Source of the DNA: Lentisphaerota bacterium
GTDB taxonomy: Bacteria > Verrucomicrobiota > Kiritimatiellia > RFP12 > UBA1067
Assembly (NCBI GenBank): GCA_012838435.1
Contig: DUPH01000024.1
Location: 1-34,673 of the forward strand
Length of the DNA: 34,673 bases
Reading direction: 5' to 3'
Both the position numbers and the translations under genes were made by a program. Positions 5,001-30,431 of the stretch are shown here, one piece after another (the stretch's first letter is position 1; each line of letters starts with the position of its first letter). The notes under the pieces are model-generated. The model was not told the DNA's origin and did not search any database. It worked only from the letters and a program-made list of their open reading frames with translations.

Positions 5001-5630
5001 TTAGCGCGAATACAATTCGACAATAGCCTGCTCATCCACGATCGGCGCGATCTGTTCGCGCGTCGGGATACTCAGAACTTCGGCGCGGAAGGCCTTCCGG
5101 TCCAGCGAGAGCCACGTGGGCATCTGCTGCGTGGTGGCGGCCTCGAGACTACGCGCGGCAAGGTCTCGGCTACGCGGGCGGTCACGGACCTCGATCACGT
5201 CACCGACCTTGAGAATCATGGAGGGCACGGAGGCCTTCTTACCGTTCACCGACACGTGGCTGTGCAGTACGAACTGACGTGCCGCGCGGCGCGACGGCGC
5301 AAAACCGAGACGGTAGACAAGGTTGTCCAAGCGGGTCTCGAGCAACTGCAGCAGCAACTCGCCAGTAACGCCCTTGCGGCGCATCGCCTCTTTATAGAAG
5401 CGCTTGAACTGGCCCTCCTGCATGCCGAACTGGCGGCGCAGGCGTTGCTTCTGACGGAGCTGCTCGCCGTAATCAGACATCTTGCGGCTGCGGCGAGCGC
5501 CATGCTGGCCCGGCGCCGGATGCCCCTGCTCAATGGCACACTTGGCCATATAGCAACGCGCACCCTTCAGAAAAAGCTTCTGCCCCTCACGCCGACAAAT
5601 GCGGCAAACGGGACCTGTATACCTGCCCAT
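5001..5630 (-). CDS. rpsD: 30S ribosomal protein S4
   Basis: This 209-residue primary rRNA-binding protein of the small subunit nucleates 16S assembly. The start is set at MGRYTG (5630) rather than 5666, because GGAGGAG precedes it and the family begins MGRY. Cys9, Cys12, Cys26 and Cys31 form the zinc-binding C+ version of the N-terminus. The S4 RNA-binding domain covers about residues 98-160 (RLDNLVYRLGF...HVSVNGKKA). The ATG lies one base after the rpsK stop, with its ribosome-binding site inside the rpsK 3' end, so translation is probably coupled. Confidence 0.97.
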   Translation of the reverse strand: MGRYTGPVCRICRREGQKLFLKGARCYMAKCAIEQGHPAPGQHGARRSRKMSDYGEQLRQKQRLRRQFGMQEGQFKRFYKEAMRRKGVTGELLLQLLETRLDNLVYRLGFAPSRRAARQFVLHSHVSVNGKKASVPSMILKVGDVIEVRDRPRSRDLAARSLEAATTQQMPTWLSLDRKAFRAEVLSIPTREQIAPIVDEQAIVELYSR

Positions 5631-5631
5631 G

Positions 5632-6303
5632 TTAGACTCTCCTCCGTTGGCGCGGACGGCAGCCATTGTGCGGGATCGGCGTGCAGTCCTTAATCAGCGT
5701 GACTTGAATGCCGACGGCTTGGATCGCCCGCACCGCCGACTCGCGTCCCGCGCCCGCACCCTGAATCCTGACTTCCACCTCGCTCATCCCCTTGGCCATC
5801 GCTTGGCGGGCCGCATCCTGCGCCACCATGGTGGCAGCGAACGCGGTACTCTTGCGCGACCCCTTGAAGCCGGCCTTGCCCGCCGAACTCCAGGCGATCA
5901 CGCCGCCGCGGGCATCCGTGATTGAAACCAGTGTGTTGTTAAAAGTCGACCGGACAAAGGCGATCCCGGCGGGGATCGACTTCCCTCTGCCCTTCTTCTT
6001 GGTGGCGTCGGCGGCCTTGACGGGATCGTCGCCCTCGGCCATCACGGCCTGCGCCTCGCTTATAGCCACCTGCTCGGGGGTTGCCTCCTTTTCAGCAGCT
6101 TCCGCCTTCTCAGCTTTCTCAGCCTTCTCAGGAGCAGCCTTCTTCTCAGGAGCCGCCTTCTTCTCAGGAGCCGCCGCCTTTTCGGCCTTTTCAGCCTTCT
6201 CGGGGGCAGCCTTCTTTTCAGGAGCCGCCTTCTTCTCAGCAGTCGCCGCCTTCTCGGGGCTCACCGCCTGCTCTTCTTCTTGCTTCACATCTTTTTCGCT
6301 CAT
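5632..6303 (-). CDS. rpsK: 30S ribosomal protein S11 with long KEAP-rich N-terminal extension
   Basis: The C-terminal ~120 residues are ordinary S11 (from about residue 104: [16 protein letters not shown], and the end [13 protein letters not shown]), which sits on the platform of the 30S subunit near the E-site mRNA path. The first ~100 residues are low-complexity Lys/Glu/Ala/Pro. They contain an almost exact duplication of a 24-residue unit ([20 protein letters not shown]...) at about residues 23-46 and 47-70. The usual S11 is about 129 residues. A shorter start at Met88 (6042) would give a normal length, but it lacks a better ribosome-binding site, and the uninterrupted repeat frame argues that the long form is made. 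GAGG stands 11 bp before the first ATG. Confidence 0.93.
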
Positions 6304-18000: not shown

Positions 18001-19343
18001 GAGACCGCATCATACGCCGGCTCGGACGAGACGAAGGTCAGGCCCGTCGGCAGGATATCCTTAAGCACAGCATTGTCGGCGGGCCACGGCCCGTTGTTAC
18101 GCCACGCGAGCGTGAACGTCACAAGTTCGTTCGTCAAAGCGGCAACCGTGTCGGCCGTCTTTGTCACCTCGAGGTCGAGGGAACGGATCATGATGTCCGC
18201 CTCGTCCGAGTTGTTACTGAGATCGCTCTCGGGCGTGGAGGTGCTGATAAGAACCGTGTTGTTGATATCCGGCAGGACACCGGCCGCGACCGGATCATCG
18301 ACACGCACCGTGAAAGTGAACGACGCCCACGTACCGGTGTAGTAAGTCGCAAAGACCTTCTTGATTGTCGGTGCCGTGCTACCAGTGTAGGTCATCTTGA
18401 CAACGAGGTCCTGATAGTTGGGCGCAATCCCTGAAATATCCAGACCATCCAGCGGTAGCGGTGCCGGGATATCTGTGAACGTAGGCCCAAGGTCATAGAC
18501 AAAGTCGTCCCCGACCACACGTCCAATCGAGTACGCGAGGGTTGTGCCTGCAGGAATATCGGCCTCGGCCACGAACTTCTCCCACGCCACAACTTCATTC
18601 GAGGTGTAGAGTCTGCGCTCGACGACGCCTGCGCCACCGAAGCCGACCGACTGCGCGTTATTGGAGAGCGGCGTGAGACCCGGCATGACGACCCAGACCG
18701 CACCACCGGTTGCTTCCGTGGGCACACCTGAAATCAGGTCGCCTACCCCGTCGCCGTTGATGTCGGCAACTGCACTGCCGAACGTGCTGAAGTACGCAAC
18801 ACTTGGCATTTCCCCGGCAGGCATCCCGCCCTGGCCGTCTGCAAGCTTGGTAATCGCCTTGACCGTGCCGTCGGGATTCATGAGCGTCAGGAAGTAAACG
18901 ACACTTCTGGAACTCCCGGAGGTGGCCGGGGACCCACCCATCATGATATCCGTGACGCCATCGCCATCGACATCGCCAAGCACGCCAAGCGCCCTCACAA
19001 AACCATTGGCACCGAACGTCCCCGCCGGAATGCCGGACATGCCGTCGGCCAGCTTGACAACACGCTTGGCTGTACCGTCGGCGTTGAGCAGCATGACAAT
19101 CGCGCCACCGCCATTGACATTGTTAGTACCCGTGAGCCGAATGGAGCCAAGCAGGACATCGGGGACACCATCGCCATCAAAGTCACCCAGCGGGTAGGTG
19201 GTAATACCCGCCATTGCTTGGTATCCGCTGATGAAGCCCGCCGGCACGCCATTGTAGCCATTGGTCATGCGAACCGCGCGTTTGACGGTGAGGTCCGGAT
19301 TGAGCAGCGCAATGAAGCCCGCGCCCAAATAGTTATCCGCCAA
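15048..19343 (-). CDS. Giant surface protein, C-terminal segment (FG-GAP, DUF11, SdrD-B, choice-of-anchor A, CARDB)
   Basis: This 1431-codon frame has no credible ribosome-binding site; the apparent TTG start at 19343 lies inside an FG-GAP repeat. Residues 1-215 hold three FG-GAP repeats with Ca-binding DxDxDG loops ([30 protein letters not shown]). DUF11 domains follow at about 390-620, and an SdrD-B/Cna-B-like domain at 638-745 ([16 protein letters not shown]...[11 protein letters not shown]). A choice-of-anchor A domain covers 780-1055 (NAFIFGDF...LAVGGTASF...GGDLYDG). A Gly/Thr/Asp-rich linker ([13 protein letters not shown]) runs from 1171 to 1230 and a CARDB-like domain from 1240 to 1350. 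The C-terminus ([13 protein letters not shown]...FYKIGVELP) is a small beta-module with no recognisable sorting signal. Confidence 0.78.
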
Positions 19344-22300
19344 TGCACCTCGATGAAGATGTCTTGAACGCCATTGCCGTCAACATCGCCAATGGGCGTC
19401 GCTCCGGTCCAATTCTTGCCCAGAGCCGTAAATTCCGGCGTACCCGGGATACCATTCACACCCGGCCGGTAATTGATGGCGCGTTTGACCGTGCCGTCGG
19501 CATTCAACAGCAACAGGAAGACATTCAGGCGGCTTTGGTTTCCAATGAAAACGTCGGGCACCCCGTCGCCATCCATGTCCGTGCCACCACAAATCTTGTA
19601 ACCCGCCTGATCCGAGGACGTGAAGAACCCTGCCGGAACGCCATTCATGCCGTTCTGTATCTTGACGGTCGACTTTGCCGTGCCGTCACTGTTCAGCAGA
19701 ATGACATAGGCTCCGCCAGGGGCTGTTTGCCGGGCAAGAATCACATCCGGCACGCCGTCGCCATCGACATCGCCGAGGCCGGAGGCGTAAATGCCGACTT
19801 GCTCGTTGGCGGCAAACGTCCCCGAAGGAATGCCGTTCCGGCCATTGGCAAGCTCCACCGCCGACTGGACGGTGCCGTCGGAATTCATCATGAGCACCCA
19901 GGCGCCGCCCGAATTAAAAGCCCCGTCGTCGTTGTACACTGCACCGATCAACAGGTCGGGCACGCCGTCGCCGTTGACATCGCCAATCGCTACAACAGAA
20001 CTGCCGAAATAGTCTCCAGACATGAGGCTGCCCGCAGGCAGGCCGCCCTTGTCATTGGCGATCTTGACCGCTCCCATCGCGCCGTAATCGCCTATGACTG
20101 CCTTGTTGATGCTGGGGCCGAGGTCACCAAGAAGAACATCGAAGCTCCGCGCGCCCGCGCCCGCTTCCGGATAGTAGACGACCGTGCTGCCATCAGGATT
20201 ATTTATCGAGACAAGCGTTGTGCCTTCGGGGACGATCTCGGAGATGACCGTGTCTCTCGCCACCGCATTACCGAGGTTATTGTACTCGATGGTATATTTC
20301 AGGAAATTGCCGCTCTCGGTCCAGTCGGAGTCACCTGTCCTGGCGTCAACCACGGACTTGCGCACGGCAACGTCAGCCCGGTAAACCACGGTTTCCGTGC
20401 TGTCAGTGTTGTTGTCCAGATACTCCTCAGCAGGCTCCGAATCGTTACGGTTGCGGATGGTGACGGTCGCGGTATTGACGATAGGCGTCCCGCAGGGGAC
20501 GTCAAGCGCCACCGTGGCCGCGAATGTGATGGTCTGCTTCTGACCGGGGAGGATGCCGACATTACGGTAGTAATTGGCACTGGTTACATCCGCCGATCCG
20601 AAGAACCACGCAACGCCATTGGTCGTGACCACACGCGTCAGCGGAACGGACGTGGTGATCTCATGACCGTCGGCATCGATCGGCAGCACCGGCTCGCCTT
20701 CGGCGTTGACGAGTGCGAGGATGCCTGCGGCACCGTCATCCGTGAGTTCCAGGCTGGCGGGCAGGACGTCTTTGACTTCAATGCCGTAAGCGATCTCCGT
20801 GCCGACATTCTCGACAACGATCTCATAAACGATCTCCTCGCCGGGAACAAGTCCGGGGGTGTCGCCTTCAGTGGAACCGGTCTTCGTCAGCGCCACATCA
20901 CTGGCGGGCGTACGGACGGTGTGCTCGTCGGCATTATTATCCGGGTTCTGATCCTTGCCGGAGACGAATATCTCGACGAAGTTGTTCAGCGCCGTACCTG
21001 GCGGAAGCGCCGCGGCACCTGTCGGCGGCGTAGCAATCACCGTCACGGCGATGCTATAAGGGCCAGCCGAGCCGGGCAACGTACCGACCAGCCAAGCGAT
21101 GTGTTGCACCGGAACGACGGGCTCTTCCGTCCAGCCGCCCGAAAGCGGATCGGCAGGGTCGAACGGGGGCACAGTGGCGCTACTGCCGGAGTGGTAGTAG
21201 GCGGTCACAGCCGCAGGGCCGTCGGCCCGCTGCTCGACGAAAGTGACATCAACCAGACCGTCGCCATCGGCATCGGGCAGGCTATCGATGATGTACACGT
21301 TCTCGCCCGCCTGACGGGTGGCGTTGTAATAGGTCAGATTCCAGTCAAAGCGGTCGCCGGACTGCACGATGGCGGGACCGTCCTTGACGATGGCTGGATC
21401 TGGATACGGCGTATCGACCGAGGCCTCGTCATCGTTGGGCTCGGTGCCGTCCTCGGGCGTAACGGTGCTGACCGTGACACTGTTGGGCAGGTGCGTTCCG
21501 GGGGCGACCGTCGAAGCGACGACGCCCTTGTACTGGATCACGACGTCGCCGGAGAGCCCGGGCAACACACCAGGAAGCAGCCCGGCCTTGGTCAGGGCGT
21601 TCGAGTTGGCCACGCTCCAGGTCAGAGCACCGTCAGAGACGACAGGCTGGCCGATGGTGTAGCCGGACGTGAGCATGACGGTAGACCCCTCGACGTAGCT
21701 GATGCCCGTCGGGAACTGGTCGGTGATAACGAGGTCGCGCGCGGCCATCTGGCCGGAGTTGGCGACGATGAGGTTGTAAGTCACCGTATCGCCCGCCACG
21801 GGGAACTCCGGCGAAGCAACCTTGCGCACGCGCAGTTCGGCGTTGCGCACCAGCACCAGATCCTCGTCGGACGAAGTCGTGGTGTCACTGCCGGCCGTCG
21901 CCGTACCGGTAACACGGTTGAGCAACTCGGCGTTGGTCTTCAGATCGTTCTTGGCGCGGACCGTGATCTTGAGTGTGCCACCCTCCCGCGAGCGTAGCTT
22001 GGCACCTTCGCCACGGTAGCCGTTATTACCGCTGATGTTGAAAACGATGCGCGTGTTGCCTTCGGAAGTCGTCTCAACAACGGAGGGCACGACCTGACCG
22101 CTGTTGTTTGCCGGTGCGCCGTTGGCCAGCGCGGCCGCGTTCCACGCATGGGTCGCGGAGAGGAACTCGGCGCCCTGAGGCAACGTGTCCACGATCGTCA
22201 CCACATCGTCATCCATGCCGGAGTTGTTGTAGTAGGTGACGATCCAAGAGAAGGTGTCGCCCCGGCTGACGACGTCCGGGCCTGTCTTCTCGACGAGGAT

Positions 22301-24205
22301 GCCCGGCGCGTTCTTGATGGTCGTCACGACCTCATTGCCAATGGCTTGCAACAACTCGGAGGAAAAGACGCCGGTCGTATTGAAGATCTGGACGCCCTCG
22401 GGGGAACCTTCGGTGCCCAGTCCGGGGCCATCGAGGTCGTTCTTGACACGCATGCCGACGACGCTCGTGCCGCCGACGGGGTAGAGCTTCAAATCACCGA
22501 TCTCGCGGTCCATCTCCCAGGCCACCCAGCGGGTCTGCTCGCCGAAGGGGCTGGTCCAGACGTCGCCGTTCTTGGTACCGGGGGCAAAGTTGGCGGCGAT
22601 CGTCGCGCCGTTGATCGGCGTCATGGGGGTCAGGAACGACGGCGGAATGTTGTCGGTGGCGGAGAACCAGACACGCTCGCCGTTGGGGCCGGTGGCGTGC
22701 ACCAGCACCATCTCGTCGGGGATGCGGTCCACCACGAAGGTGCCGCGCGAAGGCGCGTCGCCCGTGTTGTAGAGCGCCAGCTCGTAGTCGAGGGTGCCGC
22801 CGGAGGGGATCAGGTCGAGCACGTCGTTCTTATGCACCTTCAGGCTGGGTGCGAAGCGCACAACGGCCGAGGCGACGTCGGAGGCCGGGCCGGGCGAGCA
22901 ACGCGCCGTGGCCGTGGCCGTCGAAGAGAAGGTAAGCTGCTGGCCGAAGACCAGCCCGCCGCTGACGGAGGCCTTGAGCGTCGCGGGAGCCGTGGCTCCA
23001 GGAGCGAGGTTGCCCATCTCGAGCACAAGACGCCCATTCTCGGGGTCGAACTCGACGATCGAGGCCGGTGAGACACTGTCAAAGGAGATGTGCTGGCGCA
23101 CGCCGTTGACGTTGGCGCTGGGCCAACGGATCTCAAGCAGCACGTCCTCGGCCATGGCGGTACCGCGGTTCATCACGGTCACGGTGTAGGCGAGCTGTCC
23201 GGGCTTCTCAAGCACGGAGGGCGCCACCTTGCCAGGAGCGGAGAAGGCCAACTTGGGCTTATCGACTGAGACGCGCGTCGTCTCGTCGTTGGTGGCGCGC
23301 AGGGTAGCGGCCATCTTGGTACCACCGGCCAACGGCGTGTAGCCGAACGCGTTGAAGATACCACGGTTAGTGATCAGCTTGTCGATGCAGGGCGTAGGTT
23401 CAAGCAGCGTCGGGCTGACCGTCACGTCGAAGTAGCCGACTGCGGAGCGCGGCGCGCCATCGATCCAGCCGGCCGCGCCGGGCTCAGAAAAACGGGAATT
23501 AACGGCGGGGATATAGAACGCCACCCATTTGACGTCGGCGGGGTTCGCGGGCAGCTCCGTGCTCCAGAAATCGCCACCATCGACGTCAATATCGGCGGGC
23601 GCGTTGGCCGGACCGTAGGCGGGCGGCGCGCTCACGTCGCCGGTGTCCACCGTGGAGTAGAAGATGACCGCGTTGGTCTGGAGCCACGGGTCGGTGAACC
23701 ACGCGCTCTTGAACGTGGTGCCTGCGGGCACCATGTCGACGAAAATCAGGTCGTTGAGCGCCACCATGCCGGAGTTATGGACGGCCAGGCCGTACGGGAA
23801 GGAGGCGCCGGGCTTGACAAAGAGTTCGCGGTCGTCCTCGCCAGCGGTGATACCGAAGTAGGAATCGAGGTTGTCGCCCTTGGCGAAGATGCCGTAGGGC
23901 GTCTCGTCCACGGGCCATGAGACCTTAAGGGAACTAGAAATGGGATCGGTATAGATGGAGTCAAGCCACACGGTATTGATATAGCTGCCGATACCGGGCA
24001 GCGGCGGCGTGTCGAGCAACCGCACACCGAAGGAACCGGTGAAGGTGGCGCCGGGGGTGAGCGTCGGGTAGTTCGTCCAGACCACCGCCGGGAAGGGCTC
24101 GCCGCCGGCCGGCGGCGTGTAGGCGGGTACATAAAAGCCACCTGCGGGCGAGATGTCCACCACCGGGATGTCTGTCCCGCCAAGATTGGGATCGATCTTA
24201 CCCAT
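19265..24205 (-). CDS. Giant surface protein, central segment (DUF11 array and FG-GAP repeats)
   Basis: This 1646-codon frame begins with [10 protein letters not shown] but has no independent ribosome-binding site and no signal peptide. Residues 1-1370 are a series of beta-sandwich domains of the DUF11 type, recognised by recurring phrases such as [31 protein letters not shown] and [11 protein letters not shown]. Each is followed by a conserved NNxDExS-like end. Residues about 1385-1625 hold four FG-GAP repeats with [30 protein letters not shown] and [10 protein letters not shown]. After the fourth, the frame leaves the family ([14 protein letters not shown]...), showing a frameshift near 19345. 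The true continuation is the next frame from 19343 onward. Confidence 0.78.
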
Positions 24206-24816
24206 GAGGTCGGAGAGAGGTTGTCATAGACAACGACGCCGTACATCGTCTCGCGGCCCTCGCTGACGTAGCTATTGCGGGCCTCAAGGGTGAAGCGGTT
24301 GACCGTGCCGGGGAAGGTGTAGTTGCCGGAGGCGAGCGTGTAGATGCCCGCGCCCGTGCGCTTGGTCACGCCGGGGGCGGGAACACTCTTGATCAGCGTA
24401 TTGACTGTGGCGGATTTCACCGTGTCGGCGTTGGCGGCCGACGCAGTGGCGCTATTGGCGGTCTTGGAATCGTTGAGCGTGCCGTTCTTCGTGCGGACCG
24501 CGAACCAGAGCGTGTCGGTCGTGCCCTCGGGCTTGGTGCCGAGGTCCCAGTAGACGCTACGGGCGGGGATCTCCACGCCGTGTACCGTTACCGGCACCGC
24601 CGTGTAGGTGCCGCCCTGCGAAGCTTCAACAAAGGAGACATCATCGTTCTGGCCGTGCTCGGCCGGGTAGGTCATCGTGCCGTCAGCCTTGAGCGGCAGT
24701 TTATCCCAGACGACGAGGTTCTTGGCCTCAACATAGCTAACCGAATAACGGATGCGGTAGACGATGCGCTGGCCCGCCAGCACCGACTCGGGAGCCGATT
24801 TGTCGAGCAGCAACAC
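23746..24816 (-). CDS. Giant surface protein, second segment (after the in-frame TGA)
   Basis: The frame continues that of the N-terminal piece directly after a TGA; its apparent GTG start at 24816 has no ribosome-binding site. Residues up to about 200 (LLLDKSAPESVLAGQRIVYR..., ...ETMYGVVVYDNLS) are DUF11-like. Beyond position 24214 the translation turns into Arg/Ser/Pro-rich shadow sequence. Only 24214-24828 is therefore meaningful. The sense continuation is the frame that contains DLMGKIDPN. Confidence 0.65.
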   Translation of the reverse strand: MLLLDKSAPESVLAGQRIVYRIRYSVSYVEAKNLVVWDKLPLKADGTMTYPAEHGQNDDVSFVEASQGGTYTAVPVTVHGVEIPARSVYWDLGTKPEGTTDTLWFAVRTKNGTLNDSKTANSATASAANADTVKSATVNTLIKSVPAPGVTKRTGAGIYTLASGNYTFPGTVNRFTLEARNSYVSEGRETMYGVVVYDNLSPTSWVRSIPILAGQTSRWWTSRPQVAFMYPPTRRRPAASPSRRWSGRTTRRSPPAPPSPVPSVCGCSTRRRCPVSAAISIPCGLTPSIPIPFLVPLRSHGPWTRRPTASSPRATTSIPTSVSPLARTTANSLSSPAPPSRTAWPSITPAWWRSTT

Positions 24817-24828
24817 AGAAACCGGGGT

Positions 24829-25320
24829 TCAGGAGACCGCAAGGTCAGAGACCATCGGCGACACAACACCTTCATTAAGGGCCACGATGACCGCCAATTC
24901 CGGGTGCGCCACGGGATCAATCTCCGCCAGCGATACCTCGCCGTCGTAGTCGACAGGGCCGAGGACGGTCGCGCGGGTGAGCGCATTGATCACGCTAACC
25001 CGAACATCGGCAGGAGCCGACCAAGTACCGGAGAGCTTGAGCGTCCCCCAAGCGCCGAAGCTCGGCGGCTTGATGCGCACCGTCTCGTAATTGCCCGAGG
25101 TCTGGCCCGCGATCAGCTTGACGACGCCGGAGGCGGAGACGACGGTCGTTCCGGAGGTGGTGCGCACGCCCAGATTGTCATTGTACGTGTCCGTCCATGT
25201 GCCAGCATTGTTGTCGATGACCGGCGCGGCTATAGCGGCGCCGCCTAATGACAGAACCGCGGTCAGCGTAGCGAGCAAGCTGAAACCGCGGCAGATGAAA
25301 CCCTTGGTCATTGCATGCAC
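24829..25320 (-). CDS. Giant surface protein, N-terminal segment with signal peptide
   Basis: This 163-codon frame starts at GTG 25320 (AAAGGGAC stands 8 bp upstream) or at ATG 25311, nine bases later. MTKGFICRGFSLLATLTAVL and ending AAIAA is a Sec signal peptide, so the product is exported. The mature part (TWTDTYNDNLGVRTTSGTTV...) is a beta-rich domain. It ends at TGA 24829, after which the same frame carries on with a DUF11 domain (LLLDKSAPESVL). If the TGA is real, the cell would make only a 150-residue secreted fragment. Confidence 0.7.
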   Translation of the reverse strand: MHAMTKGFICRGFSLLATLTAVLSLGGAAIAAPVIDNNAGTWTDTYNDNLGVRTTSGTTVVSASGVVKLIAGQTSGNYETVRIKPPSFGAWGTLKLSGTWSAPADVRVSVINALTRATVLGPVDYDGEVSLAEIDPVAHPELAVIVALNEGVVSPMVSDLAVS

Positions 25321-25554: not shown

Positions 25555-25583
25555 TTGACCAACAACCATCCATGTGTTACGTT
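25555..25583 (+). promoter_or_regulatory. Candidate promoter of the TonB-receptor locus
   Basis: TTGACC (25555-25560) is five of six for a -35 box. After 17 bp comes TACGTT (25578-25583), a weak -10 box that overlaps a palindrome. The weak -10 box makes this a moderate call. Confidence 0.4.
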
Positions 25584-25600
25584 TTTACAAATCGTAACAC
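25574..25600. promoter_or_regulatory. Operator-like palindrome upstream of the TonB receptor
   Basis: GTGTTACG (25574-25581) and CGTAACAC (25593-25600) form a perfect 8-bp inverted repeat with an 11-bp AT-rich centre. It covers the predicted -10 box and start site of the receptor gene, the expected place for a repressor. The half-site does not let me name the regulator. Confidence 0.5.
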
Positions 25601-25637: not shown

Positions 25638-27566
25638 ATGACACTTCGGAAGCTCAGAAACCCGCTGTTCGCGGTACTCGGTACGGGCCTTTTGTCAGCA
25701 ACAGCCCAGACGACAACCAACAGTGCGGACGCCGCGCGCGCCCCCGCATCGGAGATTGAGGTTGAAGTGATAGCATCACCTATCACGCAGTTTGAAGAGA
25801 CCACCCTCGACGGCGCGAACCGCGTGGTCGTGGGGCGCGACCAGCTTGATCGCCTGAGCGCCACCGACCTGCCGACTGCCCTGCGCCAAGTGCCCGGTGT
25901 CTCGATCTCGCGCTACAGCCCGGTCGGCGCCTATGGTGGCGCACAGGGCGGATCGGTCTACATCCGCGGAGCGGGCACGGCCCGGCCCGGCGGCGAGGTC
26001 CGGATCTATAGCGACGGCGTACCGCGTGAATCCGGCGTCTGGTCGCATCCGTTGATGGATATCGTACCCATTGATTTCGCCGAACGCATCACCGTCGCCA
26101 AAAACCCGCAGCCGCAGCATTACGCCGGTACCTTCGGCGCGGTGGATGTCGAGACCCGCAGGCGGCAGACCGAGGGGCACGAAGCCGAATTGTCCGCCGC
26201 TTACGGCCGTTTCAACACGCTGATCAGTTCTGCCGCAGCCGGTGGCAAGATCGACCTGTTCGATTATTACGCCGGGGCCGCCTACAAATACTCGGAGGGC
26301 GCGCGCAAACATGGCGAGGCCGAACTGCGTAGCGCCTTTGCGCGGGCCGGATGGGATCTCTCCCCACATGACCATCTCTCGTACATCTTCCTGGGCACCG
26401 ACAACTGGGTGCGTGATCCCGGCCCGAAAGGCGGTCCGAGGCCGCAACGCGACCAGTTCAACACCGAGACCCTGACCCACGCGGTTCGCCTCGAAACCCA
26501 ACGCGACCGCATCCGCGGATACTCCTTGCTTTACTACGAGGACGGCGAAATCCGCTGGCGCAAGGACCATCTGTCCGACGGCGTCCTGACCTCACCGGCC
26601 GGCTTTTCCAACACCGACTGGGACAACTACGGATTCCGTTCGTCGTATGACATTCTGTTCGACCGCCTCACGCTCACCGGATCGCTGGACTCATGGTCCG
26701 AAGGCGGCGAGACCTGGAACATCCGTTCATTCGACAACCGGCGGGTCTGGGGCTATAACGGACGTTTCTTCACCACGGCCCCCTACCTCGGTGCACGTTA
26801 TGATTTTGACGTAGGCCACGACTGGACCCTCACGCCTTCGGTCGGCGCACGCCACTACATCAGCACTGAGTTCGACGACAAAACCGCGCCCTGCGCCGCA
26901 TTGACCCTCTCCCGCGAAAAGTTGAACATCTTTGTCTCCCACGCACGAGGCGTCCACTACCCCGGCGTTTACATCCGCGGTGTCTCACCCTCCACCTGGC
27001 GCACGCTGGAACCCGAAACGCTACACACCACCGAAGCGGGCGTCCAAATGGGAATCGGTGAGCAGGCGGCGTTGCACACCACGTTGTTCCATACCGAGGT
27101 CGAAGACCGCATGGACTCAACCTCGGCCGGTTACTTCAACACCGGGGACATGAAGGCACAGGGAGCGGAAGTTTCGCTGCATCTCTATCCGCGCAATGAC
27201 CTCTCATTTTTCGTGGGCGGCACCTACACCGATCCTGACACCCATCCGGTCTCGCGCATGCCGGAAGTCACCTTCACGGCGGGTAGCTCCTACCGCATCA
27301 CGCACGCGCTCCGCTGGGATTTGGATGCCCAATACGTTACCACGCAGTACGCCTACAGCATGCGCTCGATCAACCCTGACCTGGAAAAGCTCGATGACTA
27401 TCTGGCCGTCAACACGCGCCTCTCGCTGGACCTGCGTGCGCTTTGCCCGCTGGACGGCGAATTGTATGTGGCTGTCGAGAATCTGACCAACCGGCATTAT
27501 GAATATTTTCCGGGCTACCCGATGCCGGGCATCATGTGGTACACTGGCATGAAGGTGAAGTTCTGA
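25638..27566 (+). CDS. TonB-dependent outer-membrane receptor
   Basis: This 642-residue protein starts at 25638 (MTLRKLRNPLFAVLGTGLLS), chosen over 25572 because GAGGGT precedes it and a signal peptide follows directly. The plug domain is visible at about 40-165 (EVEVIASPITQFEETTL near the TonB box, then LPTALRQVPGVSISRY and GGEVRIYSDGVPRESG). The rest is a 22-strand type barrel with frequent aromatic-ended strands and a terminal Phe (TGMKVKF) read by the Bam machinery. Its cargo crosses the outer membrane using TonB energy. The ECF transporter genes just downstream suggest a vitamin, metal or metal-chelate. The TonB/ExbBD genes are not in the window. Confidence 0.93.
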   Translation: MTLRKLRNPLFAVLGTGLLSATAQTTTNSADAARAPASEIEVEVIASPITQFEETTLDGANRVVVGRDQLDRLSATDLPTALRQVPGVSISRYSPVGAYGGAQGGSVYIRGAGTARPGGEVRIYSDGVPRESGVWSHPLMDIVPIDFAERITVAKNPQPQHYAGTFGAVDVETRRRQTEGHEAELSAAYGRFNTLISSAAAGGKIDLFDYYAGAAYKYSEGARKHGEAELRSAFARAGWDLSPHDHLSYIFLGTDNWVRDPGPKGGPRPQRDQFNTETLTHAVRLETQRDRIRGYSLLYYEDGEIRWRKDHLSDGVLTSPAGFSNTDWDNYGFRSSYDILFDRLTLTGSLDSWSEGGETWNIRSFDNRRVWGYNGRFFTTAPYLGARYDFDVGHDWTLTPSVGARHYISTEFDDKTAPCAALTLSREKLNIFVSHARGVHYPGVYIRGVSPSTWRTLEPETLHTTEAGVQMGIGEQAALHTTLFHTEVEDRMDSTSAGYFNTGDMKAQGAEVSLHLYPRNDLSFFVGGTYTDPDTHPVSRMPEVTFTAGSSYRITHALRWDLDAQYVTTQYAYSMRSINPDLEKLDDYLAVNTRLSLDLRALCPLDGELYVAVENLTNRHYEYFPGYPMPGIMWYTGMKVKF

Positions 27567-27567
27567 T

Positions 27568-27780
27568 GCGGGCGGAGCCCGCAACCCAGTTTAATCTCAC
27601 ACAAAGGCACAAAGGACACAAAGTTTTTTCACAAGAGGCTCTTACAAAACCCCTTGATTGCAGGTGTGGCACGGGCATCTTGCCCGTGTTTCATGGGCGA
27701 GACGCCCATGTCACGAGGGATTTTGCAAGCGCCTCACAAATCCTATTCCCTTAGTGGCCTTCGTGCCTTCGTGTGAGGAA
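27568..27780 (+). repeat. Composite 3'-flank repeat block after the TonB receptor
   Basis: Directly after the stop are a GCGGGC-GGA-GCCCGC hairpin, ACAAAGGCACAAAGGACACA repeats with a T run (about 27600-27627), the ACGGGCATCTTGCCCGT palindrome (27665-27720) and a CCTTCGTGCCTTCGTGTGAGG stretch near 27760. The order matches the block behind rnhB. No gene is seen between 27567 and 27828. Confidence 0.6.
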
Positions 27781-27828
27781 CAATTTGCTCAATTTCGATG
27801 GAAGCTGGAGCCTGAGACCAGAAACCAC

Positions 27829-28377
27829 ATGATTCGGCCTAGAGAATATGCCTTTTGCGGCCTGTTCGGTGCGGCGGCGCTGTTGCTACCGACGCTTTTC
27901 CATCTGCTACATCTGGGGCATGTCTTCATGCCGATGTATCTGCCGCTGGTGGCGCTGGCTTTTTTTGTGCGCCCCGCTGCATCCGCGTTGACAGCTCTGC
28001 TGGTACCGTTGCTCTCCGGCGCGGTCACCGGCATGCCGCCCTTCATGCCGCCGGTCGCCCCGGTGATGGCGCTGGAACTGGCACTGATGGCGCTGATGAT
28101 CGGCGTGTTGCGCCAAGCGGTGCCGCGCATGCCGGTCTGGTGTCTGCTCGCGCTCGCGTTGGCTGTCGGACGGATTGTGAACGCATCCCTGTTCTATGTC
28201 GCCGCGCGCATCTTGGAGTTGCCAGCCGGTTTCGTGGCCGGCATCTCGCTGCTCAGCGGCTGGCCGGGTCTGCTGCTAATGTTGGCGGTCATCCCCGGCC
28301 TCGTGCATGCCACCGGTCACGCGCAGTACCATATCCATGACCCCGGAGCCTCCCATGACGAATCCCCTGTGTCCTGA
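27829..28377 (+). CDS. ECF transporter substrate-binding (S) component, substrate unknown
   Basis: The protein has 182 residues with about six membrane segments. The start MIRPREYAF at 27829 is chosen because upstream residues derive from repeats; no clear ribosome-binding site is seen. Features typical of S components are the FMPMYLPLVAL helix, the loop SGAVTGMPPFMPP and long hydrophobic helices ending LLLMLAVIPGLVHA. In this transporter class the S component binds the substrate in the inner membrane and topples when EcfT/EcfA hydrolyse ATP. His residues cluster at LFHLLHLGHVF and in the C-terminal tail (HATGHAQYHIHDPGASHD), which hints at a metal or metal-chelate ligand. The 3' end overlaps the methyltransferase gene by 23 bp. 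Confidence 0.75.
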   Translation: MIRPREYAFCGLFGAAALLLPTLFHLLHLGHVFMPMYLPLVALAFFVRPAASALTALLVPLLSGAVTGMPPFMPPVAPVMALELALMALMIGVLRQAVPRMPVWCLLALALAVGRIVNASLFYVAARILELPAGFVAGISLLSGWPGLLLMLAVIPGLVHATGHAQYHIHDPGASHDESPVS

Positions 28378-28981
28378 TCCGCGACAACCCTTTTTCGACA
28401 GTATCGCCGACGCCTGGGACGGCTGGCACGACCTGCCCGCGCTCAACGCGCAACTGGCCGATTTCTTTGAGCACGTCGGCGTGCAACCGGACGAGTCGGT
28501 CGTGGATGTCGGCTGCGGCACCGGCAACCTGACGCTCGCCCTGCTCGCGTGGCTCGGCCCGCAAGGTCGAGTGACCGCGCTCGACATCTCGCCGGCCATG
28601 TTGGCGCGCGCCGCGCGCAAGACGACCGACGCGCGCGTGACGTGGCACGAGGCACCGGCCGACCGCATACCGCTGCCAAACGGAACATGCGACCGCATCC
28701 TCTGCTTTTCCGCCTGGCCTCATTTCGACCGTCTGGACCACGTAGTCGCCGAGTTCAGCCGCGTGCTGTGTCCCGGCGGTCAGGCCCACATCCTGCATCT
28801 GATCTCCAAGGAAGAGGTCAACCGCATTCACAGCGAGGCCCATCCCACCGTCCGCGCCGACCGCCTGCCGCCGGTTGACGATGTGGCCGATCTCTTCCGC
28901 GCGAACAGCTTTACGGTGATCGAGACCGAAGACAACGCATCGCGTTACCTGCTGAGCGTGCGCAAGGAGCCGAGAGCATGA
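28355..28981 (+). CDS. Class I SAM-dependent methyltransferase in the ECF locus
   Basis: This 208-residue protein starts at 28355, six bases after GGAG, and within the end of the S-component gene. Motif I is VVDVGCGTGNLTLAL (about 49-63), followed by VTALDISPAML (73-83) with the acidic residue that binds SAM ribose. A later motif is FSAWPHFDRLDHVVAEFSRVL, as in UbiE/Methyltransf_11 proteins. The acceptor is unknown. It is cytoplasmic, has no signal, and overlaps ecfT by ATGA. Its place inside a transporter operon suggests that it modifies the imported compound or a close product. Confidence 0.88.
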   Translation: MTNPLCPDPRQPFFDSIADAWDGWHDLPALNAQLADFFEHVGVQPDESVVDVGCGTGNLTLALLAWLGPQGRVTALDISPAMLARAARKTTDARVTWHEAPADRIPLPNGTCDRILCFSAWPHFDRLDHVVAEFSRVLCPGGQAHILHLISKEEVNRIHSEAHPTVRADRLPPVDDVADLFRANSFTVIETEDNASRYLLSVRKEPRA

Positions 28982-29730
28982 TCGCTTTCAGCGAGGCTTT
29001 TGGTGGCGGCAACGGCGCGGCGCGGCGGCTTGCCCCCGCCGTGCGCCTGTTGTGCGGCGCGTGGGTCTTTGTCTGCTGCGCGGTCGTCCCGCTCGATTCG
29101 CCGACGGGCATCGCGCTCTTTGTTGTCGCGTGGTTGGCCTGGCTGTTCGGTTGCGCCATGCCGCCGCGACGGCTTGCCCTGTCGCTGGGCTTCGCCATCT
29201 GCCTCTTCACGCCACTATTGCTGCTGGCACCTGTTGCGTACTGGAACGGCTCCGCCGCAACGTGGACCGGGGCGTTGCGGGCACCGCTACGTGTCGGTGT
29301 GCGCGGCGTGGCGGGCGTCACGATAGGCGTCGGCGCGCTATCGCTGATCCCGCTCTCCGAGTTTGCCGACGCGGTGGCGGCCTTGCCCTTGCCGCGCGCC
29401 GTAACCAGCCTGCTGGTGCAGATCGTGCATCAGGCCGCGTTGCTGACCGACGAAACGCGACGCATGGCCGATGCCCTGCGGGTGCGCGGCGTAGCCTCAG
29501 CGCGACTCGCCGTTCGGCTGCGCGTGGTGACAACGTTCCCGGCCAGTTGGTTGACGCGGCTGGCGCTGCGTGCCGCGCGCGCAGGCGATGCGATGGAGGT
29601 GCGCGGTTTTGACGGCCTGCCGCCGAGTGTGCCGCCCCTGACTTTTTCCCGTTCCGACTGGCTGGCACTGACCGCTACCACCCTGCTCGCCGTGGGTGCG
29701 CTTGTGCTGCGCTGGAGGGGGTTCGCATGA
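28978..29730 (+). CDS. ECF transporter transmembrane component EcfT (CbiQ-type)
   Basis: This 250-residue membrane protein couples ATP hydrolysis to the S component. Hydrophobic segments lie at about 24-58, 65-88, 108-125 and 228-246. The cytoplasmic coupling region carries two short helices with the Arg-Gly motifs of this family, ADALRVRG (164-171) and DAMEVRG (204-210), which fit into EcfA grooves. ATGA overlaps join it to the methyltransferase gene upstream and to ecfA downstream. The dedicated S-T-A arrangement is that of group I ECF systems. Confidence 0.9.
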   Translation: MIAFSEAFGGGNGAARRLAPAVRLLCGAWVFVCCAVVPLDSPTGIALFVVAWLAWLFGCAMPPRRLALSLGFAICLFTPLLLLAPVAYWNGSAATWTGALRAPLRVGVRGVAGVTIGVGALSLIPLSEFADAVAALPLPRAVTSLLVQIVHQAALLTDETRRMADALRVRGVASARLAVRLRVVTTFPASWLTRLALRAARAGDAMEVRGFDGLPPSVPPLTFSRSDWLALTATTLLAVGALVLRWRGFA

Positions 29731-30431
29731 GCGCGGCACTCGCCATCCATGATCTGCGTGTCGCCTATCGTGCGGGCGACCCCGAAGTTCTGCGCGGCAT
29801 CTCCCTGACGCTCGAACCCGGCGAACACTGCGCCCTGCTGGGGCTCAACGGCTCGGGCAAGACCACGTTGCTGCGTGCGGTCGCGGGGTTGCAGCCCTTC
29901 AATGGAACGATCACGGTCTGCGGCATCGCGCTCCAGCGCGAGACGGTGCGCGACGTGCGCGACCGGATCGGATTTCTCTTCAGCACGCCCGATGACCAGC
30001 TCCTGTTTCCGCAGGTGCTGACCGACGTGTCGTTTGCTCTGGAACGAGCCGGTCGCCCGCAGGCGGAAGCGCGCGAAGCGGCACTTCAGACGTTAGAGGC
30101 GCTGGGAATTGCGGCCTACGCCGAGCGCGCGCCGCACACGCTGTCGCAAGGCCAACGCCAGCGGGTGGCGTTGGCGGGAGCACTGGTTGCGCAACCGCCG
30201 CTGCTGTTGCTGGACGAACCCACCGCCTCGCTGGATCCGGTCGGACGCGATGAACTCGCACAGGTGCTGACGCGTCAACCGGCGGCGCTGCTGCTCGCCA
30301 CGCACGACCTCGCCTTCGCGCGGCAGGTCGCCCGGCGCTTCATCATGCTTGAAGACGGAAAGATCACCGCTGACACCGACGCCCCCGCGCACATCGAAGC
30401 GGCCTTCGCGCGGGAACGAAGAGTTTTTTGA
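29727..30431 (+). CDS. ECF transporter ATPase EcfA (CbiO-type)
   Basis: This 234-residue ABC ATPase shows Walker A GLNGSGKTT (39-47), Q-loop Gln91 in TPDDQLLFP (the DDQ form typical of ECF ATPases), signature LSQGQRQR (139-146), Walker B LLLLDEP (159-165) and switch His193 in ATHDL. There is only one ATPase gene, so it probably works as a homodimer, as CbiO does. It is the last gene of the operon. After the stop the sequence enters repeats and no terminator is obvious. Confidence 0.93.
   Translation: MSAALAIHDLRVAYRAGDPEVLRGISLTLEPGEHCALLGLNGSGKTTLLRAVAGLQPFNGTITVCGIALQRETVRDVRDRIGFLFSTPDDQLLFPQVLTDVSFALERAGRPQAEAREAALQTLEALGIAAYAERAPHTLSQGQRQRVALAGALVAQPPLLLLDEPTASLDPVGRDELAQVLTRQPAALLLATHDLAFARQVARRFIMLEDGKITADTDAPAHIEAAFARERRVF

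Follow-up and report, generated by a model that had tools for sequence, protein, structure and literature searches.

A putative NikR-controlled TonB/ECF nickel-acquisition locus with an associated methyltransferase in a Lentisphaerota bacterium

The DNA analyzed here (the window) is a stretch of 34,673 nt from contig DUPH01000024.1 of the Lentisphaerota bacterium assembly GCA_012838435.1, a 4-Mb genome. The window carries a block of five plus-strand genes that encode a TonB-dependent outer-membrane receptor (TonB), the S component of an energy-coupling factor (ECF) transporter, an S-adenosylmethionine (SAM)-dependent methyltransferase (MT), and the transporter proteins EcfT (T) and EcfA (A). 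We propose, with slightly better than even confidence, that this block encodes a previously undescribed type of nickel importer, in which a TonB receptor and an ECF transporter are controlled by NikR and an obligate MT would methylate the incoming ligand. Nickel is well supported as the predicted cargo element, because the block is preceded by a predicted NikR operator, is linked to nikR in other genomes, and in a sister genome appears to share its operator with a NikMN transporter. No description of this gene set was found in open-licence papers. An earlier reading of the window (the original prediction) had proposed a dedicated ECF transporter that has an unnamed S component and is accompanied by its own MT, all in a one-strand locus with overlaps of 23, 4 and 4 bp. 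These points have held, the layout being confirmed from the open reading frame (ORF) coordinates, but the link to nickel was not reached. The tight coupling that it proposed applies to S, MT, EcfT and EcfA, which overlap, and not to the receptor, which is separated from S by 265 bp.

The predicted NikR operator and nikR linkage

S was used to scan bacterial and archaeal species genomes and 31 loci (denoted by L numbers) were recovered. In 29 of these the encoded S is closely related (53-96% identity). The 29 loci come from metagenome-assembled genomes (MAGs) labeled Kiritimatiellae, Verrucomicrobia, Myxococcales, Deltaproteobacteria, Acidobacteria, Thermoanaerobaculales, Gemmatimonadetes, Planctomycetes, Raymondbacteria, and others.

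A palindrome at 25574-25600 lies just outside the block, whose start had been placed at 25638. For deltaproteobacteria, a NikR operator consensus of GTGTTAC-N13/14-GTAACAC has been inferred, which precedes nikMNQO-type nickel transporters (PMC545781). The palindrome in the window matches this consensus letter for letter, and the exact operator occurs once in the whole genome. Three further near-matches with one or two mismatches are present in the genome, which is fewer than a reversed control pattern yields. Across the 29 loci (314 kb) there are 6 sites with at most one mismatch compared to none in shuffled sequence, and 13 sites with at most two mismatches compared to an expected ~1.4. The uniqueness of the exact copy together with this enrichment argues that the palindrome exceeds chance. 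The original prediction had named the palindrome as a clue to a regulon, which is borne out by its identity with the published consensus. The same operon is preceded by operators with at most two mismatches in L013, L014, L018, L033, L039, and L040; in L017, L020, and L025 the half-sites are inverted, a variant of the NikR operator that has likewise been described (PMC545781).

One NikR is encoded in the genome of the window (PRK04460 equivalog, 154.7 bits against a cut-off of 105), and NikR was not found in the other genomes listed of the same family and order. The nikR gene adjoins the block in 9 of the 29 loci (L020, L026, L028, L029, L030, L031, L034, L037, and L041), for which the probability under random placement is ~2e-15. 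NikR is encoded in 24 of 30 block-bearing genomes; the corresponding count for the window's phylum is 83 of 241. The nearest sister genome with a complete operon (L014) also carries a gene for a NikMN-type fusion, with a CbiQ-type gene downstream of it (L076). In this genome GTGTTACGTTTCCCGAATTATTAACAC lies ~20 bp 5' of the NikMN start codon and GTGTTACGTTTCTGAAAAACGTAATAC lies 27 bp 5' of the receptor start in the TonB-S-MT-T-A operon. Going by these two sites, the classical nickel-type ECF transporter and the TonB-S-MT-T-A operon appear to share one operator and to belong to one regulon.

The nickel enzymes and other nickel transporters were surveyed in the same 30 block genomes. Matches to the [NiFe]-hydrogenase large-subunit family are found in 23, many of them short and possibly complex I homologues, LarC is found in 21, and carbon monoxide dehydrogenase (CODH) is above its cut-off in 3. 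A CbiM/NikM transporter is present in only 6 of the genomes, which leaves the block as the sole ECF-type nickel-uptake candidate found in most carriers. S and MT are set apart in L027 by genes (L027:2894-7976) for a response regulator, NAD-linked [FeFe] hydrogenase subunits, and a LarC-like nickel-insertion protein (PF01969, 3e-89), and a second, full-length LarC is encoded elsewhere in that genome. The presence of an [FeFe] hydrogenase fits a nickel-limitation response, because a nickel-independent hydrogenase of D. desulfuricans is predicted to be under NikR control (PMC545781).

The transporter components and the linked methyltransferase

S, T, and A are encoded together in the window, which places the transporter in the ECF group. 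The structure model of S, with a predicted local distance difference test (pLDDT) score of 88, has the six-helix fold of a standard vitamin-type ECF S component. The best structural match is TmRibU (Z of 16.8, 158 aligned residues, 2.7 A), and further matches include 4hzu_S, BioY, and PanT; these have identities of 10-16% and score above unrelated helical entries. When compared to the generic Pfam family ECF_trnsprt (PF12822), the window protein gives a sub-threshold E of 0.007 and the best family member gives 1.4e-5. There was no match to S among PDB sequences, no family-level sequence match to the named vitamin S families (BioY, ThiT, QueT, and others), and no match to CbiM (PF01891) among 30 S proteins. 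The Pfam, NCBIfam, and PDB-sequence searches agree with the original prediction in placing S outside the named S-component families.

NikM and CbiM are marked by an MH-type N-terminal metal-binding segment, and the NikMN protein of the L014 genome begins with MHMADALVS. This segment is missing from S, which starts with MIRPREYAF, and none is conserved in the alignment of S proteins, where the invariant residues are F23, H24, G29, P34, M68, and P69 plus a GWPG motif. NikM chains are not among the structural matches listed for S, although this listing does not exclude a likeness. The receptor is far below the cut-offs of the NCBIfam siderophore and B12 receptor models, and EcfA is matched best in NCBIfam by models of ECF ATPases and of CbiO, with E near 1e-50.

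The MT has a Rossmann-like fold, a GxGxG motif I, and an acidic residue after beta-2, as in class I SAM-dependent MTs. Its model (pLDDT of 93) gives Z of about 23 to known MTs, and the SAM motif I is intact (GCGTGNL), with G69-C-G-T-G and D93 invariant (numbering from 28307). Additional invariant residues are W37, D38, W137, P138, H139, H164, N172, and H175. The best NCBIfam match is the DVU_1556 family at 68 bits, below the equivalog cut-off of 155, and the protein is below every curated NCBIfam cut-off shown. WPH139, H164, N172, and H175 look like parts of an acceptor pocket. A nickel site formed by the conserved histidines was considered and rejected, since related MTs from unrelated contexts share H139; two of three such MTs also share H164, N172, and H175. 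The plasmid relatives of the MT have no common gene neighborhood.

Two of the 29 loci, L032 and L041, break off within S; in each of the other 27 the MT is part of the cluster. It adjoins or overlaps S in most loci, many of the S-MT junctions among relatives being ATGA-type 4-bp overlaps, and lies five genes downstream in L027. In L026, L036, and L040, from Acidobacteria and Planctomycetes MAGs, S and MT are fused in one frame of 381-384 aa; L039 is also one frame and was not counted as a fusion because its S half is truncated. The TonB receptor is within the block in most loci. A 379-genome sample of the phylum of L029 includes 9 genomes with S, of which four are new (L129, L131, L132, and L133), all with the order TonB-S-MT-T. 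G202, a genome from the window's order, has S on one contig and MT-T on another. S, MT, and T give correlated pairwise distances (r of 0.66-0.81), as expected of genes that travel together. The absence of the MT from orthologous loci, which would have spoken against the original prediction, was thus not observed. The conserved linkage that it proposed to look for is found for the MT and not for biosynthesis genes, since no biosynthesis or export genes recur beside the block in ~30 loci.

More distant relatives of S (27-35% identity) are located beside a TonB receptor in two Prevotella loci (L042:7962-8465 and L043:8010-8462); neither an MT beside S nor NikR in the genome was found for these loci. 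The MT is also not beside the distant S relative in L134.

Proposed function and alternative explanations

In the proposed system, NikR would leave the operator at 25574-25600 when nickel is scarce. The receptor would then take nickel, most likely in the form of a small chelate, over the outer membrane, and the dedicated ECF transporter, in which a member of the new S family works with an EcfT and an EcfA of its own, would carry it over the inner membrane. The C-terminus of S components is cytoplasmic and SAM is cytosolic. The MT is therefore expected to act on the cytoplasmic side, where it would sit beside S; in some bacteria it is the C-terminal half of the same polypeptide. A nickel chelate is a better guess for the cargo than a cofactor or a free ion, and both the TonB receptor and the vitamin-type S suit organic complexes. 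We infer that the MT methylates the imported ligand, so that the nickel would be released and the ligand trapped or inactivated. The further step to a vectorial, methylation-coupled metal uptake, in which methylation of the ligand on arrival makes import irreversible and releases the nickel, is a tentative suggestion that we hold to be rather less probable than its converse.

Several observations weigh against this assignment. A recognizable operator was not seen in more than half of the 29 loci scanned. The genome of the window (assembly ~90% complete) yielded no [NiFe] hydrogenase, CODH, or LarC, with urease, glyoxalase I, and others not searched for, and no CbiM was found in it. Vitamin-type S components usually carry organic molecules. 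The conserved histidines of the MT are no pointer to nickel, because they are found in related MTs elsewhere too.

The role of the MT can be explained in other ways. One is that nickel is imported and the MT serves to make or complete a secreted nickelophore, transferring a methyl or aminocarboxypropyl group from SAM. In favor of this, chelates are the usual cargo of TonB receptors, and SAM-using enzymes take part in the synthesis of opine metallophores. Against it, partner genes for biosynthesis and export do not recur. The S-MT fusions also put the MT at the entry point and not in a biosynthetic complex. For these two reasons an action on the imported ligand is favored over nickelophore synthesis, which is unlikely although it stands foremost among the alternatives. 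Next in order, and also unlikely, is that the MT has a target other than the cargo, be it the transporter, a chaperone, or some further cell component, and that its co-expression has regulatory causes. The MT does come from a wide family that is found in unrelated contexts; the linkage in 27 of 27 loci and the three fusions are difficult to reconcile with so loose a relation to the cargo.

Other explanations change the cargo. It could be a nickel-containing or nickel-related organic cofactor or a precursor (for example, of the nickel-pincer nucleotide) that the MT remodels in a salvage pathway, with NikR control arising through nickel metabolism. The vitamin fold of S and its lack of CbiM/NikM sequence features would suit such a cargo, as would the LarC-like gene inside the L027 block and the frequency of LarC among the carriers. 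The window's genome is without LarC, NikR otherwise governs nickel supply, and we know of no methylated nickel-pincer cofactor; this alternative is placed slightly lower again. A cargo without any nickel link (cobalamin, haem, or another vitamin), with an operator match that is coincidental or belongs to another regulator, is very improbable. It draws on the weak similarity of the receptor to BtuB and on the Prevotella loci, where S relatives adjoin TonB receptors without NikR or the MT, and is opposed by the operator, the nikR linkage, and the operator common to NikMN. Cobalamin uptake in particular was rejected, as the window has no cobalamin riboswitch and the BtuB similarity is weak.

Gene layout and relation to known systems

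The coordinates of the block are listed in Table 1. The overlaps between S and MT (23 bp), MT and EcfT (4 bp), and EcfT and EcfA (4 bp) are exact given an MT start at ATG 28355. The MT frame is already open from ATG 28307; the start at 28355 is favored because the relative L014 has the equivalent start and the same 23-bp overlap.

Table 1. Features of the block in the window
Feature	Position	Strand	Evidence or remark
Predicted NikR operator, GTGTTAC-N13-GTAACAC	25574-25600		37 bp 5' of the TonB receptor start codon
TonB-dependent outer-membrane receptor	25638-27566	+	Pfam Plug 7.4e-14
TonB-S gap	27567-27831		265 bp, ~150 bp of it extra sequence
ECF S component, family unnamed, 181 aa	27832-28377	+	structure model and sub-threshold Pfam ECF_trnsprt
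Class I SAM-dependent MT	28355-28981	+	Methyltransf_25 1.3e-22
EcfT, CbiQ family	28978-29730	+	PF02361 5.9e-12
EcfA ATPase, single A subunit	29727-30431	+	ABC_tran 3.1e-31

The extra ~150 bp in the TonB-S gap is missing in L013, a 96%-identical relative, and L014 and L015 have gaps of only 13 and 10 bp, respectively. These short gaps suggest that the coupling of the receptor to the other genes is ancestral and was loosened in the window, and a single transcription unit of the receptor with S-MT-T-A is probably the ancestral state. The extra sequence, which looks like a small mobile repeat, holds two short palindromes, CACGGGCATCTTGCCCGTG and CATGGGCGAGACGCCCATG, that are not present in L013.

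Two small, conserved lipoprotein-like genes are located 5' of the TonB gene in L017, L019, L020, L023, L031, and L033, from Myxococcota, Raymondbacteria, and related loci (for example, L019:4955-5470 and 5542-6021). Their products have the signatures 'NDFNN...PPWTIC' and 'YPEVVVVN...' and no Pfam match, and may belong to the same system as periplasmic or outer-membrane components. In L016 alone, a 6-pyruvoyl-tetrahydropterin-synthase/QueD-like gene (L016:5860-6336) shares 4 bp with the end of EcfA. On the minus strand of the window, at 19265-25320, three ORFs (24829-25320, 23746-24816, and 19265-24205) that overlap and lie in different frames appear to be pieces of one large surface-repeat-like protein, which suggests frameshifts or assembly errors.

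The closest comparison is to the NikMNQO and NikKMLQO transporters of deltaproteobacteria (PMC545781), which have the same ECF architecture with a CbiQ-type T, a single CbiO-type ATPase, and the same NikR operator. The block differs from these systems in that its S is not CbiM/NikM by sequence, the N, K, and L subunits are absent, and a TonB receptor and an obligate MT are added. The operation and regulation of the block appear to resemble those of NikMNQO, yet its S does not fall with NikM by sequence. S resembles the vitamin-type components RibU, ThiT, BioY, FolT, and PanT in the six-helix fold of its predicted model (Z of 12-17), and differs from them in its low identity, the lack of a family-level match, the NikR link, and the MT fusion in some genomes. 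The MT shares its fold and SAM motif with UbiE, DVU_1556, and BioC-like class I MTs but is sub-cut-off in NCBIfam and is tied to a transporter. The receptor can be likened, by its apparent role, to the TonB-dependent nickel receptors FecA3, FrpB4, CntO, NikH, and others (PMC11247825), with which it has in common a TonB-dependent outer-membrane step and apparent nickel control. In contrast to those systems, it is paired at the inner membrane with an ECF transporter that has an MT.

If the proposed function is correct, the block would give several phyla a second ECF-based way to take up nickel, for the most part in genomes without NikM; to our knowledge, nickel ECF transporters are known only with NikM-type S components. 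It would also be the first hint of metal uptake that is coupled to methyl transfer. The TonB-S-MT-T-A genes constitute a defined, testable set that may serve as a marker of nickel limitation in uncultured bacteria.

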